Assembly (NCBI GenBank): GCA_027492255.1
Contig: JAPUFB010000004.1
Span: 124,001-188,000 of the forward strand
Length of the DNA: 64,000 nucleotides
Source: Candidatus Saccharimonadota bacterium
GTDB lineage: Bacteria; Patescibacteriota; Saccharimonadia; Saccharimonadales; Saccharimonadaceae
Reading direction: 5' to 3'
The translations under genes and the position numbers were made by a program. Position 1 is the stretch's first letter. Every line of letters begins with the position of its first letter. Under the pieces are notes generated by a model. The model was not told the origin of the DNA and searched no databases. It saw only the letters and a list, made by a program, of their open reading frames with translations. This document shows positions 30,458 through 36,868 of the stretch, in pieces.

Positions 30458-30994
30458 ATGATCAACGCTAAGCGTCTCATACGACAACGTGAATCAGACG
30501 AACTGGCACGACAACGTGAAGAAGTACGATCCGAACACCAGAAGCGAGTACGTACGTTCGAAGCAGATAAGCCCTTGCGTGACAGTCTTCAGGAAAAGAT
30601 CCAGGACGTCGTGCGGGACATATTCGGTCTACTAACAGCGGATGATTGGTACAAGCATGGAATCTTTTGTCGTCTTGAGACGCAAGGATTCCTCTTCAGG
30701 CACAGCAGGAAAAAGGCTTGCATCAATCTCTGCAGTCATCACTTCGTTGCATATCTGCTATACGAGAGTTCAGAATGGACTCGTCACTATGCATTCATCG
30801 GAATCAGTCAAGACGGCAAAGCATGTGTTGGCCTCGATATTTATTCGGGGAAATATGTCACTGAGATATCCGATCGTCGGGAACTCCAGGATATCCTCAC
30901 GTTCTACGTCGAAGCATTGAAAACACTCAAGGACCGTACGGTCACATCACCCACAGAACCTAGCGGTGACGTCTCGGAAGAAATGAGTTCATGA
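30458..30994 (+). CDS. Orphan cassette protein, 178 aa, unknown
   Basis: Highly charged N-terminal helix (RLIRQRESDELARQREEVRSEHQKR) that may form a coiled coil, then a compact domain with several Cys/His residues (CRLETQGFLFRHSRKKACINLCSHHF). No family recognised. Shine-Dalgarno GGAAAGAG upstream. Its stop overlaps the next gene start by 4 nt (ATGA), so the pair is translationally coupled and probably works together. AAG and CGT/CGA codons are frequent. Confidence 0.6.
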   Translation: MINAKRLIRQRESDELARQREEVRSEHQKRVRTFEADKPLRDSLQEKIQDVVRDIFGLLTADDWYKHGIFCRLETQGFLFRHSRKKACINLCSHHFVAYLLYESSEWTRHYAFIGISQDGKACVGLDIYSGKYVTEISDRRELQDILTFYVEALKTLKDRTVTSPTEPSGDVSEEMSS

Positions 30995-31464
30995 TGAGAG
31001 TCCACGCACTACGCCAGATCGGCCAACGAACACGCCGAAGAAGGGGTGAAGCTATCCCGCTAGGGAGCCAGAAGCTCTATGACGAGATACGCGAGGCCGC
31101 CCGCATTATCGGTACTACGATCGCCCGTTGTAAGGAGTCTGATCAAGTCTGGCATCAACTACTTACGGATCCGATCAATTATGCACCAGTCGTACTCATC
31201 GGAAGACAATCACGTCCCGAGAACTCGTACCGATGTGTTGCGCTCGTTCGCGGTACAGAGGTAAGGGTGCGTCAGTTCGGTGAATATCATCATTTTGCGG
31301 TCGATGCCGATGGGAATATCTACTACCGACAATTTTATCGGGACTGGCGTTTCCGCCAGGACGTCCGTATCTGGAGGCTCATCAAGGAGCTCGAATACGA
31401 TCAACTCGATGACGGCATTCTGAGGACCGATTTACTCAGACCGATGCTCTCCGCTCTCCGTTAA
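30991..31464 (+). CDS. Orphan cassette protein, 157 aa, unknown
   Basis: Very basic N-terminus (MMRVHALRQIGQRTRRRRGE) followed by an alpha/beta domain rich in Arg and aromatic residues (YRQFYRDWRFRQDVRIWRLI). Nucleic-acid binding is possible but not shown. Coupled by a 4-nt overlap to the 178-aa gene. A strong terminator follows at once. No homologue recognised. Confidence 0.6.
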   Translation: MMRVHALRQIGQRTRRRRGEAIPLGSQKLYDEIREAARIIGTTIARCKESDQVWHQLLTDPINYAPVVLIGRQSRPENSYRCVALVRGTEVRVRQFGEYHHFAVDADGNIYYRQFYRDWRFRQDVRIWRLIKELEYDQLDDGILRTDLLRPMLSALR

Positions 31465-31563: not shown

Positions 31564-31680
31564 AAAAACAACCGTCGAATTTACTTCGCGGTTGTTTTTA
31601 TAAATAAGGGAAAAGCCCAGCCAGACAAAATGTATCATTTTGTCTGCGCGTCAGGAAAAACCGTAGGTTTGTCCTGAGTC
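31564..31680. other. Three consecutive hairpins between the cassette and the ncRNA
   Basis: Three perfect or near-perfect stems in a row: AAAACAACCG/CGGTTGTTTT (about 31565-31598, T run on the plus strand, a likely terminator), CAGACAAAAT/ATTTTGTCTG (about 31622-31646) and TCAGGA...TCCTGA (about 31650-31677). They lie immediately downstream of the minus-strand ncRNA terminator. No ORF is present. Confidence 0.5.
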
Positions 31681-31689
31681 AGAAAATGA

Positions 31690-32052
31690 AAAAGCGGCTC
31701 AGCAAGGGTGGGCATCGCTGAGCCGCTATTTCACCCTTCAACCCACCCGGGCTGTCTGTTCGATGAAGCGCTACGACCGTATTAAGCTACGCGGTGTGCG
31801 CCTGAGGTATCCTCGCAGAGAACATCTCACTTGTTTGATAGTCACTAGTGAACTAGACAAGACCTGAAAGTTGATTCCAGGTCACGCAGACGGACGGGCC
31901 GACTACGGGACGAGGTTAAAGGGGTTAGACGCATGTAAATCTATATGTCTTAAAGTGGAGGGTAGAAAACTTTAAAACGATTTACATGCGGTCTAACAAA
32001 TTCTTGTTAGAATGGGGGTATAAGGTGCGTTGAACTGTATAACAGTTGAACG
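31690..32052 (-). ncRNA. Putative structured ncRNA of about 360 nt, family not identified
   Basis: A consensus promoter (TTGACT, 17 nt, TAATAT) reads into an ORF-free interval that ends in an 11-bp terminator stem with T run. In between are many paired elements: an 18-bp stem (31924-31941 with 31979-31997, one bulge) enclosing a 7-bp hairpin, a 9-of-10 hairpin at the 5' end, GACCTG/CAGGTC (31861-31883), and nested GCGC and CCG/CGG stems (about 31767-31800). Length and compactness resemble a housekeeping RNA, but I find neither tmRNA ends (5' GGNUUCGAC, 3' tRNA-like arm with CCA) nor the RNase P core (GAGGAAAGUCC, ACAGAA). Confidence 0.6.
31693..31727 (-). terminator. Terminator of the ncRNA
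   Basis: AGCGGCTCAGC at 31693-31703 pairs perfectly with 31717-31727; on the minus strand a TTTTTCATTTT tail follows. Confidence 0.9.
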
Positions 32053-32058
32053 TGTTGT

Positions 32059-32087
32059 ATATTAGCACGTATTTGCATATAAGTCAA
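32059..32087 (-). promoter_or_regulatory. Promoter of the ncRNA
   Basis: On the minus strand TTGACT (32082-32087), 17-nt spacer, TAATAT (32059-32064); start predicted near 32052. It lies back to back with the dprA start at 32108. Confidence 0.85.
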
Positions 32088-32107
32088 TACTTTTAAACAC
32101 TTTTTCT

Positions 32108-32959
32108 ATGAAAATCAATAACATAAGCAGTTCTACCCCTGTTTTCCCAGAGAGGCTTCGAAATATTCCAAGCGCTCCTAAAGAACTGTATTATCTAGGA
32201 AATATCTCTCTCGATGCACCTGTCGTTTCAATTATTGGTACTCGCAAGCCTACTCCGTACGGAAGCGCTGTTACTTTTGAAATAGCTGAGAAACTTGCGT
32301 CAAGAGGAGTGGTTATCGTGAGCGGGCTTGCGCTTGGTATTGACGGTATTGCGCACCAAGGAGCACTCAAGGCTAGAGGCAGAACAATTGCCGTACAGGG
32401 AAATGGACTTGATATGATTACTCCTCGCACACATCGTCAATTAGCGATCGATATTCTTGAGTGCAATGGGGGAATTATAAGCGAGCATCCCCCTGGCACA
32501 CCAGCCAGCCACTATTCATTCGTTGTCAGAAACCGACTCGTAAGTGGTCTATGTGATGCACTTATCGTCACGGAAGCAGCGACAAAAAGTGGAACGATGA
32601 ATACGGTTATGCACGCGCTTGAACAGGGAAGAGAAGTATTTGCAGTTCCAGGAAATATCACAAGTCCGATGAGTGCCGGCTGTAACCGCCTCATTGAACA
32701 GGGCGCTACGCCAATTGTCGATATAGACGCCTTTATCGAGCGAATCGCGCCGAAGCAAGCCTTACTCTCCTCACCACTGTTACAGGCCTATTCAGAAGAC
32801 GAAAAATGTATTCTCGAGCTTATCTCGAACGGTATCAGTGATGGCGATCAAATAGCGGTGCAGAGTGGGTTGAAACCAGAAGTATTTCAACGTACGATGA
32901 CGATGCTCGAGCTCAGCGGAGCAATTTCACCTCTTGGCGCCAACCAGTGGAAACTTTAA
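32108..32959 (+). CDS. dprA: DNA processing protein DprA (Smf)
   Basis: 283 residues. Rossmann-like DprA core: SIIGTRKPTPYG, SGLALGIDGIAHQGAL, RNRLVSGLCDALIVTEA, SGTMNTVMHALEQGREVFAVPGNITSPMSAGCNRLI. DprA loads RecA on incoming single-stranded DNA during transformation. A C-terminal winged-helix-like domain (about 220-280) follows. It is slightly shorter than usual and lacks an N-terminal SAM domain. Divergent from the ncRNA promoter; ends convergently with a 191-aa gene 4 nt away. Confidence 0.93.
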   Translation: MKINNISSSTPVFPERLRNIPSAPKELYYLGNISLDAPVVSIIGTRKPTPYGSAVTFEIAEKLASRGVVIVSGLALGIDGIAHQGALKARGRTIAVQGNGLDMITPRTHRQLAIDILECNGGIISEHPPGTPASHYSFVVRNRLVSGLCDALIVTEAATKSGTMNTVMHALEQGREVFAVPGNITSPMSAGCNRLIEQGATPIVDIDAFIERIAPKQALLSSPLLQAYSEDEKCILELISNGISDGDQIAVQSGLKPEVFQRTMTMLELSGAISPLGANQWKL

Positions 32960-32963
32960 CCCC

Positions 32964-33539
32964 TTAGGCCGCCAGTACGAGTACCCGTCTCCCTATCTCT
33001 TGAGACAACTCGTCCTCACCAGCTTCTTGGCGGATAATTTTTTCACGCAGATCTTCAGCACGATACTCATTTTCAACTAACAACACCGTTGTCATAAGCT
33101 CTTCCGGCTCATCATCGCTTGCGAGCTCGACGATAATATCCCTGATAACATCTAAACGCGACACACCGACGTGATCCCGGTTAAGCGCGGTACTAAAGCC
33201 TTTCTCGACCCATTGATGCACAGCAGTAACAAACTTCGGATGCTCATCCTGCCAGCGTAGAATATCAAGTTGCGAAGACAGGACTTCGTGCTCCGCCTCA
33301 AGCAGGAGTAATTCACGAGACTCGTCTCGACTCAACCCGCCGCTATGTGCTTCTTGTTCACGCAGTTTATAGATCGCTTCACAGACGCCATCCACCTCAA
33401 AGACGAGATCGTCAACAGACTCGGTTAATTCCCCGCGTGACAGACCATCGTAGCTTTCTGGAGCTGGCTGAGGTTCAGGTATTTGATAATTATGGAAAAC
33501 ACGACCACCATCCTCAATACTAAGGGTATTACTTTTCAT
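32964..33539 (-). CDS. Hypothetical acidic helical protein, 191 aa
   Basis: Soluble and strongly acidic, mostly predicted helical with heptad-like Leu/Glu patterns (YKLREQEAHSGGLSRDESRELLLLEAEHEVLSSQLDILRW), so partly coiled coil. No family recognised. Strong promoter (TTGACA, 17 nt, CATAAT at 33595-33623) and CAGGAG Shine-Dalgarno with a leader of about 50 nt. Expected to be well expressed. Confidence 0.65.
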   Translation of the reverse strand: MKSNTLSIEDGGRVFHNYQIPEPQPAPESYDGLSRGELTESVDDLVFEVDGVCEAIYKLREQEAHSGGLSRDESRELLLLEAEHEVLSSQLDILRWQDEHPKFVTAVHQWVEKGFSTALNRDHVGVSRLDVIRDIIVELASDDEPEELMTTVLLVENEYRAEDLREKIIRQEAGEDELSQEIGRRVLVLAA

Positions 33540-34552: not shown

Positions 34553-36868
34553 ATGCCTAAAAATCTCGTCATCGTAGAATCACCAGCCAAAGCCAAAACT
34601 ATCGAGAAATACCTCGGTAAGGACTTTAAAGTACTCTCAAGCATTGGCCATATCCGTAGCATTGCCAAGAAGACCAAGGACGGCACACCGCCGATCGACG
34701 TGGCGCATGATTTTAAAACTGTTTATGAAGTCGACAGCGAAAAACGCAAAGTTATCACTGAACTTAAGAAAGCTGTCAAAGAAACTGACACCGTGTGGCT
34801 CGCAACGGATGAAGACCGCGAAGGGGAGGCGATCGCCTGGCATCTTTGTGAGGTCCTGAAACTCGATCCGCGCGAAACGAAGCGAATCGTCTTTCACGAA
34901 ATCACAAAATCAGCCATCGAAGAAGCTATCCAGCATCCTCGCACCGTTGATATGAAACTCGTCGAAGCCCAACAAGCCCGCCAAATCCTCGACCGCATCG
35001 TTGGATTCGAACTCTCGCCAGTCGTCTGGCAGAAAGTACCGGGCGGCAAAAGTGCCGGACGCGTCCAAAGCCCTGCGGTACGATTGCTTGTTGAGCGCGA
35101 ACGCGAAATCCGCGCCTTCGATAGTACCTACCAGTTCAAGATAACGGCGCTATTCACGCATGGCAGCGAGGAAATTAAGGCCGAATTACCAGAACGATTC
35201 ACTACCGAAGAAGAGGCTCATTCGTTCCTCGAAAGTCTCAAAGGAGCAATCTTTAGCGTCTCTGGCGTCACAAAAAGCCCAAGTACCCGCAATCCAGCCG
35301 CGCCATTCACGACAAGCACCCTCCAACAAGAGGCCAACTCGCGACTTGGATTCAGTAGCAAATCTACCATGGCAAGCGCGCAGAAGCTCTATCAGGACGG
35401 TATGATTACCTATATGCGTACCGACAGCGTCATCTTGTCGAAACAGGCCCTGGCAGCAGCTGCAGGCTTTATAGAGCAGGCATTTGGCAAAGAATACGTC
35501 CAAGTTCGCGCCTACAAGACCAAAAGCGCCAGTGCTCAAGAAGCCCATGAAGCAATTCGCCCAACCGATATGGCCCGCGAACGAGCCTCCAGCAATGAAT
35601 ACGACCAGAAATTATACAATCTTATCCGCACCCGCACCCTGGCGTCACAGATGTCGCCCGCCAAACTCGAGAAAACAGAGATGGCAATCACCATTAGCAC
35701 CCAAGACTCACGAAAATTTATCGCCAAGGGTGAAGTTGTTGTCTTTGACGGTTTCCTGAAAGTATATGGAGGCGGCAAAGAAGACGCCCTTCTGCCAAAT
35801 CTCGTCTCTGGTGATCTCCTCTCACTCGAGAACGTCCTCGCCCGTCAAACCTTTGCCCGACCGCCAGCCCGCTACTCGGAAGGTGCGCTCGTCAAGAAAC
35901 TCGAAGAGCTCGGCATCGGCCGACCGTCTACCTATGCAACGATTATCAGTACCGTCCAAGCCCGTGGTTACGCCGAACGCGGGGAAGGCGAGGGCCAAGA
36001 GCGAGAAGTTATTGAACTGGCCCTGGATGGAGCCAAGGATGTATCTCGCCGTGTTGTCACCGAAAAAACTGGTTCTGACAGGGGCAAGCTTGTCCCGACT
36101 CCCGCTGGTGAGCTTATTGCCGACTTCCTCGGAGAACACTTCGATGAAGTTGTGGACTACGGTTTTACGGCCAGTGTTGAAAAACATTTTGATGACATCG
36201 CTGAAAACAAACTGGCGCGCAATGCGATGTTGAAAGATTTTTATGGTCCGTTCCATGCCCGTATCGAAAATTCTGGCTCTATCGACCGCAGTGCTGTTGC
36301 TCAGGCTCGAGAAATCGGTATCCACCCCAAGACGGGAAAGCCAATCCTTGCTCGTTTTGGCCGTTTTGGACCGATGCTCCAGCTCGGATCATCTGAGGAT
36401 AAAGACAACAAACCGGAATTCGCCCCTATGCCAGCTGGTGCTCGGGTCGAGACTGTCACGCTCGAACAGGCCCTCAAAGCCTTTGAATTACCTCGTCTTG
36501 TCGGAAAAACAGAGGACGGCAAAGATATTAAAGCCAATGTTGGACGTTTTGGACCGTATATACAAGTCGACAAGCTATTTATTAGCCTCAAAGCACCACT
36601 TGATCCCCATACAATAACAGAGGCAGAAGCCCGTGAAGCCTATGCCGCAAAGCTTATCACGGAAGCCGAGAAGAACATCGCCGACTTCGGCGACGGAGTC
36701 AAGGTTCTCAAGGGCCGTTTTGGACCATATATTACCGACGGCAAGAAAAATGCCAAAATTCCCAAAGACACAGAACCGTCCGCTATAACCCATGACCAAG
36801 CCAAGCAACTTCTCTTAGAAGCACCTGAGGCTTCAAAAAAACGCCGCTTCGTCCGTCGAAAAAAATAA
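34553..36868 (+). CDS. topA: DNA topoisomerase I
   Basis: 771 residues from ATG 34553, which matches the conserved start MPKNLVIVESPAKAKTIEKYLG better than an upstream TTG. Toprim domain at 1-125 with TDEDREGEAIAWH; type IA core with the nucleophile Tyr287 in MITYMRTDS and GRPSTYA. The C-terminus lacks Cys4 zinc ribbons and instead has three Topo_C repeats of the GRFGP type, then a basic Lys/Arg tail. Relaxes negative supercoils. Promoter TTGCTA, 16 nt, TAATAT upstream, with a leader of about 25 nt. Confidence 0.96.
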   Translation: MPKNLVIVESPAKAKTIEKYLGKDFKVLSSIGHIRSIAKKTKDGTPPIDVAHDFKTVYEVDSEKRKVITELKKAVKETDTVWLATDEDREGEAIAWHLCEVLKLDPRETKRIVFHEITKSAIEEAIQHPRTVDMKLVEAQQARQILDRIVGFELSPVVWQKVPGGKSAGRVQSPAVRLLVEREREIRAFDSTYQFKITALFTHGSEEIKAELPERFTTEEEAHSFLESLKGAIFSVSGVTKSPSTRNPAAPFTTSTLQQEANSRLGFSSKSTMASAQKLYQDGMITYMRTDSVILSKQALAAAAGFIEQAFGKEYVQVRAYKTKSASAQEAHEAIRPTDMARERASSNEYDQKLYNLIRTRTLASQMSPAKLEKTEMAITISTQDSRKFIAKGEVVVFDGFLKVYGGGKEDALLPNLVSGDLLSLENVLARQTFARPPARYSEGALVKKLEELGIGRPSTYATIISTVQARGYAERGEGEGQEREVIELALDGAKDVSRRVVTEKTGSDRGKLVPTPAGELIADFLGEHFDEVVDYGFTASVEKHFDDIAENKLARNAMLKDFYGPFHARIENSGSIDRSAVAQAREIGIHPKTGKPILARFGRFGPMLQLGSSEDKDNKPEFAPMPAGARVETVTLEQALKAFELPRLVGKTEDGKDIKANVGRFGPYIQVDKLFISLKAPLDPHTITEAEAREAYAAKLITEAEKNIADFGDGVKVLKGRFGPYITDGKKNAKIPKDTEPSAITHDQAKQLLLEAPEASKKRRFVRRKK

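Follow-up and report, generated by a model that had tools for sequence, protein, structure and literature searches.

A stand-alone RNA gene between pth and dprA

The window, a 64,000-nt stretch of DNA from a Candidatus Saccharimonadota bacterium, carries an RNA gene on its minus strand within the gene order der-pth-RNA-dprA-topA. Its transcription converges on the pth side and diverges from dprA and topA. The features of the locus are listed below in window coordinates, in the order in which they follow from dprA through the RNA.

32108..32959, plus strand: dprA, the divergent neighbour (PF02481, E = 1.3e-72)
32059..32087, minus strand: RNA promoter, TTGACT-N17-TAATAT, its -10 element extended by TG, conserved at the same position in nearly all of 81 loci
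31689..32052, minus strand: RNA gene, ~364 nt, its start inferred from the promoter and its end set at the U-run
32028..32052, minus strand: 5′ hairpin H1, from the predicted fold and the alignment; variable in sequence, with pairing possible in the relatives seen
32006..32028, minus strand: conserved 5′ motif GCACCUUAUACCCCCAUUCUAAC, mostly unpaired, from the alignments; diverged in genera g3, g11, g12 and g40
31924..31997, minus strand: helix P3, which in the window has 18 bp and one bulge, from covariation in 28 sequences
31955..31965, minus strand: apical loop of P3, CUACCCUCCAC, which contains CCUCC, from conservation and predicted unpaired probability
31914..31923, minus strand: 5′ strand of P4, CCCUUUAACC, from the analysis of P4 strand pairs
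31744..31913, minus strand: middle domain, enclosed by P4 and of variable length (in relatives between about 45 and 165 nt)
31742..31748, minus strand: GGGUGGG, complementary to the terminator loop; part of a proposed pseudoknot, with a 2-nt overlap with P4
31734..31743, minus strand: 3′ strand of P4, GGUUGAAGGG, from compensatory pairs
31704..31716, minus strand: terminator loop GAUGCCCACCCUU, with GCCCACC at the equivalent position in 80 of 81 loci
31687..31733, minus strand: 3′ hairpin and intrinsic terminator, from the arms and U-run, conserved in relatives

A preliminary description of this DNA had placed a consensus promoter and a terminator on either side of an ORF-free unit divergent from dprA. 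Each of these elements was confirmed, with the promoter, the terminator and the RNA between them all on the minus strand and the dprA ATG at position 32108. The promoter matches the consensus at 32087-32059; one such site is expected by chance, and a TTGAC-N16/17-TGnTAnnnT box occupies the equivalent site in nearly all 81 of the relatives' loci. The terminator arms (31717-31733 and 31687-31703) are 17 nt long and 94% complementary, and are followed by TTTTT; this terminator was overlooked by a consensus scan because its loop is 13 nt. An ORF scan detected no ORF of ≥60 aa within the RNA region. In the loci where neighbours were found, there was no co-directional downstream gene. Given that the neighbours are all convergent or divergent, we conclude that the RNA is not a cis-regulatory leader or riboswitch.

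Two further features of the surrounding DNA are worth recording. Just 3′ of the RNA, at 31566-31648, there are two short inverted repeats, around AACAACCGTCGAA..TTCGCGGTTGTT and AGACAAAATG..CATTTTGTCT, which on inspection of the sequence are possible terminators. Between pth and the RNA there are two overlapping ORFs of 178 and 157 aa (30458-31464), which had no match in Pfam; tblastn detected neither of them in the relatives that were read.

Fold, anatomy and compensatory change

The region had been described as strongly self-complementary, with an 18-bp stem. Consistent with this, the minus strand folds far better than shuffled sequence (z = -7.9, compared with z = -5.5 for the plus strand), and all 12 family members tested gave folding z values between -5.4 and -10.6. 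The stem corresponds to helix P3, whose strands in the window are GTTAGA/TCTAAC plus CGCATGTAAATC/GATTTACATGCG, with one bulged C. The same order of elements is common to 80 of 81 loci: first the TTGAC-type promoter, then the 5′ hairpin and 5′ motif, P3 and its loop, the 5′ strand of P4, the middle domain, GGUG, the 3′ strand of P4, and finally the terminator hairpin, whose loop holds GCCCACC. The terminator hairpin is not only a transcription signal but also a conserved part of the RNA fold. Across loci the RNA is 212 to 513 nt long, with a median of 339 nt.

Alignment of relatives had been proposed as a means of finding compensatory changes, and such changes are present in both P3 and P4. 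Among the 28 sequences aligned for P3, 11 of the 16 pairs have changes on both sides, and 94.8% of cells are paired. P3 and its apical stem together contain 75 cells with double changes, as compared to 23.8 in shuffles, and all slid registers gave a much lower signal. Read by eye, the outer P3 pairs GUUAG/CUAAC are replaced in diverged genera by GUUGC/GCAAU, GUUAC/GUAAC or GUUAU/AUAAC. For P4, a long-range helix, we found 26 distinct strand pairs with compensatory changes, including GCCUUUAUCC/GGAUGAAGGC, CCCUUUGUCC/GGACGAAGGG, CCUCUUGACC/CGUCGAGAGG and CCCUAUAACC/UGUUGUAGGG. The paired fraction of P4, at 0.858 against 0.819 for shuffled pairs, was reached in 1 of 2000 shuffles; this figure is conservative, since the fixed anchor that was used put five of the 26 strand pairs out of register. 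We conclude that P3 and P4 are maintained by compensatory change.

The terminator loop and the sequence 5′ of it offer a further helix, in the form of a proposed pseudoknot between GGUGGG and GCCCACC (6-7 bp of complementarity). GGUG is present in 80 of 80 loci and GGUGGG in 76 of 80, so that the pairing is nearly invariant and hence beyond test by covariation. We also considered a second pseudoknot, between UUAUACCC of the 5′ motif and GGGUnnAA located 3′ of P4; the pairing is perfect in some members but shows no consistent covariation, and we dropped it. In other families of the order (L071-L075), the 5′ side of P3 starts with GUUUUAGA(G/A)CG and so resembles the start of Cas9 crRNA repeats (GUUUUAGAGCU), a resemblance that is probably due to chance.

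Distribution and comparison with known RNA families

With the RNA as query, blastn gave matches in the two other genomes of the genus and, across the family, in 125 of 151 genomes (53 of 61 genera), as two conserved blocks. We built a covariance model from the 5′ block of the RNA (28 sequences). Within the order, this model matched 140 of 198 genomes, which represent 95 of 122 genera, and nearly every one of them had a single copy. When 380 genomes of the phylum were searched with the model, matches were confined to this one order, except for one weak match (G455) that has neither the 3′ motif nor the family motifs and looks like AT-rich DNA; we regard it as spurious. Genera g3, g11, g12 and g40, which the 5′ model missed, carry the RNA with a diverged 5′ block, and the figure of 140 out of 198 is therefore a lower bound. 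In genus g2 of the same family (e.g. G003, G063, G089), the 5′ model gave no match in about a dozen nearly complete genomes of 0.7-0.9 Mb, which from the sequences could reflect either loss or strong divergence. A scan of named genomes with the core pattern of the RNA returned at least 118 stretches, and the titles among those listed are nearly all Saccharibacteria, Saccharimonadia or unnamed bacterium; viral contigs scanned with the same pattern gave no match. The core is also present on SEAL01000024.1 (L135), a contig titled as a Chloroflexi MAG, which is probably a misbinned Saccharibacterial contig.

We compared the window with all 4227 families of Rfam 15, and at the gathering score found nothing but two tRNAs. 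The locus itself gave no convincing match at E values up to 10. Fourteen relatives gave no match at the gathering score, and 14 others, searched at E up to 2, gave sub-threshold matches alone, which we took as chance. The weak matches dismissed in this way include the trpB motif (24.5 bits, where 59 are needed), miRNAs, and ncr1175 (32.3 bits, where 60 are needed). Models for OLE, GOLLD, ROOL and raiA were likewise unmatched, both at the locus (E up to 10) and in relatives. The covariance search that the preliminary description had suggested thus gave no convincing match at the locus, and its view of the region as an unassigned structured RNA holds.

The preliminary description had allowed for either a housekeeping RNA too diverged to recognise or a new RNA class. 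The first of these does not hold for RNase P RNA or tmRNA. The class A RNase P model (RF00010) and the tmRNA model (RF00023) were unmatched at the locus, and the true genes lie elsewhere in the genome, on another contig (C6), at 32989-33350 (245.6 bits) and 36105-36477 (117 bits), respectively. SRP RNA, considered below, is also excluded, and for 6S RNA no match was found in Rfam scans of the locus and its relatives. The second possibility, a new class, is well supported by conservation and covariation. We consider it virtually certain that this is a real and new class of structured RNA, one that lies outside the families described in Rfam 15 and of which no description was found in the literature searched. 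Because that search took in open-access papers, with no bioRxiv preprints and few subscription journals, its failure to turn up the RNA is weak evidence.

Several known RNAs provide points of comparison. Like OLE, GOLLD, ROOL and raiA, whose functions are mostly unclear, the new RNA is a few hundred nt long, stands alone, is strongly structured and conserved within a lineage, and has a function that is not evident from sequence; it differs from them in being unmatched by Rfam and in its own architecture, which comprises P3 with the CCUCC loop, P4 and the proposed terminator pseudoknot. It resembles RNase P RNA, tmRNA, SRP RNA and 6S RNA in length, in usually occurring as one copy per genome and in being near universal in its clade, whereas RNase P RNA and tmRNA are encoded elsewhere in this genome, SRP is seemingly absent as a system and 6S is unmatched.

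Large RNAs found across a whole order are rare, and those known for long, namely RNase P, tmRNA, SRP and 6S, proved central. Saccharibacteria have tiny, reduced genomes, and the cultured members depend on a host. A near-universal RNA in genomes as compact as these (about 0.6-1.5 Mb), which keep little that is dispensable, presumably does something important. With the alignment, model and anatomy described here, annotation pipelines could mark a gene that is now blank in many genomes.

C-rich loops and possible functions

The most constant parts of the RNA include two C-rich sequences, CCUCC and GCCCACC, while the stems vary freely. CCUCC is found in the P3 loop at 80 of 81 loci, plus 10 further, and is retained even in lineages with a changed 5′ motif. 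Both loops are predicted to be exposed: mean unpaired probability is 0.89 for the P3 loop and 0.86 for the terminator loop, compared with 0.35 over the RNA as a whole. The anti-Shine-Dalgarno sequence has CCUCC as its core. We propose that the RNA acts in trans, and that P3 would present the CCUCC loop as a mimic of the anti-Shine-Dalgarno end of 16S rRNA. The partners of the loop could then be purine-rich ribosome-binding sites close to start codons, or the RNA might contact ribosomes. The proposed 3′ pseudoknot of GGUGGG with the GCCCACC terminator loop would fold and protect the RNA end, and may open to expose a further C-rich loop, to which a target or a protein could bind.

Action in trans through exposed C-rich loops suggests a general base-pairing regulator of translation or mRNA stability as the most likely role. 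That the near-invariant C-rich loops of a trans-acting RNA contact other RNAs or ribosomes is nonetheless a tentative proposal, and the combined picture, of a stand-alone non-coding RNA gene of the order working by base pairing in trans, is one that we put forward with only a little more assurance. Regulatory sRNAs with C-rich loops are known from Firmicutes, among them RNAIII and RsaE of Staphylococcus aureus. The new RNA is like these in having exposed C-rich loops, as predicted here, that could pair with ribosome-binding sites, and in ending with a terminator hairpin. In contrast to them, the new RNA is spread over an order, has no known target and has a nearly invariant terminator loop, and we detected no homology.

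The genome offers few obvious partners for such pairing. An exact search with TGGAGGGTA, the 9 nt complementary to the P3 loop, found three other sites in the genome, none of them at a ribosome-binding or start site. Upstream of 52 long ORFs in the window, AGGAG occurs at seven and GGAGG at two. Strong Shine-Dalgarno sites are therefore sparse, and would leave an anti-Shine-Dalgarno mimic little to pair with. Protein binding would explain the near-invariance of the loops just as well. Given the lack of a start-site partner and the scarcity of strong Shine-Dalgarno sites, we consider a protein-binding scaffold about as likely as base pairing. In that case the C-rich loops would bind a dedicated protein, for example of the KH-domain or cold-shock type, and the RNA would possibly have a housekeeping task in its own right, in the manner of 6S, SRP and OLE RNAs in other organisms. 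A large, multi-domain RNA that is near-universal, usually single copy, and combines near-invariant loops with highly variable stems has the pattern of a housekeeping RNP, and the exact 9-nt search, which returned no mRNA target, is consistent with this. However, we identified no partner protein or co-occurring gene, and the middle domain varies strongly in length.

A bolder reading is that the RNA is a new general housekeeping RNA of the Saccharibacterial order, with an anti-Shine-Dalgarno-like loop that acts on ribosomes or translation as a whole, in cells seemingly without SRP, and that it is perhaps essential. We think this unlikely.

If the RNA were a 6S RNA, strongly diverged but still bound to RNA polymerase, its size range, its own promoter and its general conservation would fit. 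However, the Rfam 6S models (RF00013 and its relatives) were unmatched at the locus (E up to 10) and in 14 relatives (E up to 2). Moreover, the predicted fold is not a single long rod with a central bubble: it combines several hairpins with a long-range helix, and the terminator hairpin stands independently. We therefore judge a 6S identity very improbable.

The preliminary description had also raised a link to competence, given the back-to-back position of dprA. At most loci the dprA start lies about 20 nt from the -35 box of the RNA, as might be expected of a cis-acting or antisense regulator of dprA. However, the two genes are transcribed divergently, with no overlap between them. In addition, dprA was undetected by tblastn in 13 loci where topA was seen, and in 12 of these topA starts so close to the RNA, at a distance of up to about 640 nt, that dprA would not fit between them. 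At least 12 loci thus retain the RNA between pth and topA where dprA is absent. Since the RNA persists without dprA, we conclude that the linkage reflects inherited gene order, with no sign of a competence function, and that regulation of dprA by the RNA is scarcely credible. As a separate observation, the -35 box lies within an inverted repeat, TTGAC-N5-GTCAA, in many members of the same family, and imperfectly so in the window (32059-32107). With its start about 20 nt beyond, dprA may be transcribed almost without a leader, from a divergent promoter that overlaps that of the RNA.

Finally, the SRP RNA models RF00169 and RF01854 found nothing in this genome and nothing convincing in 20 relatives, which made it worth testing whether the RNA is the missing SRP RNA of Saccharibacteria. 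That identity can be dismissed, because the signal-peptide-binding domain of Ffh (PF02978) was detected in none of the 61 genomes tested from the order (this genome and 60 relatives), as against 14 of 14 positive controls, and the SRP helix 8 motif CAGG..GGAA..AGCA occurs in 0 of 80 family RNAs. SRP seems to have been lost in the order, as was reported for ffh and ffs in Parcubacteria (PMC4508563).
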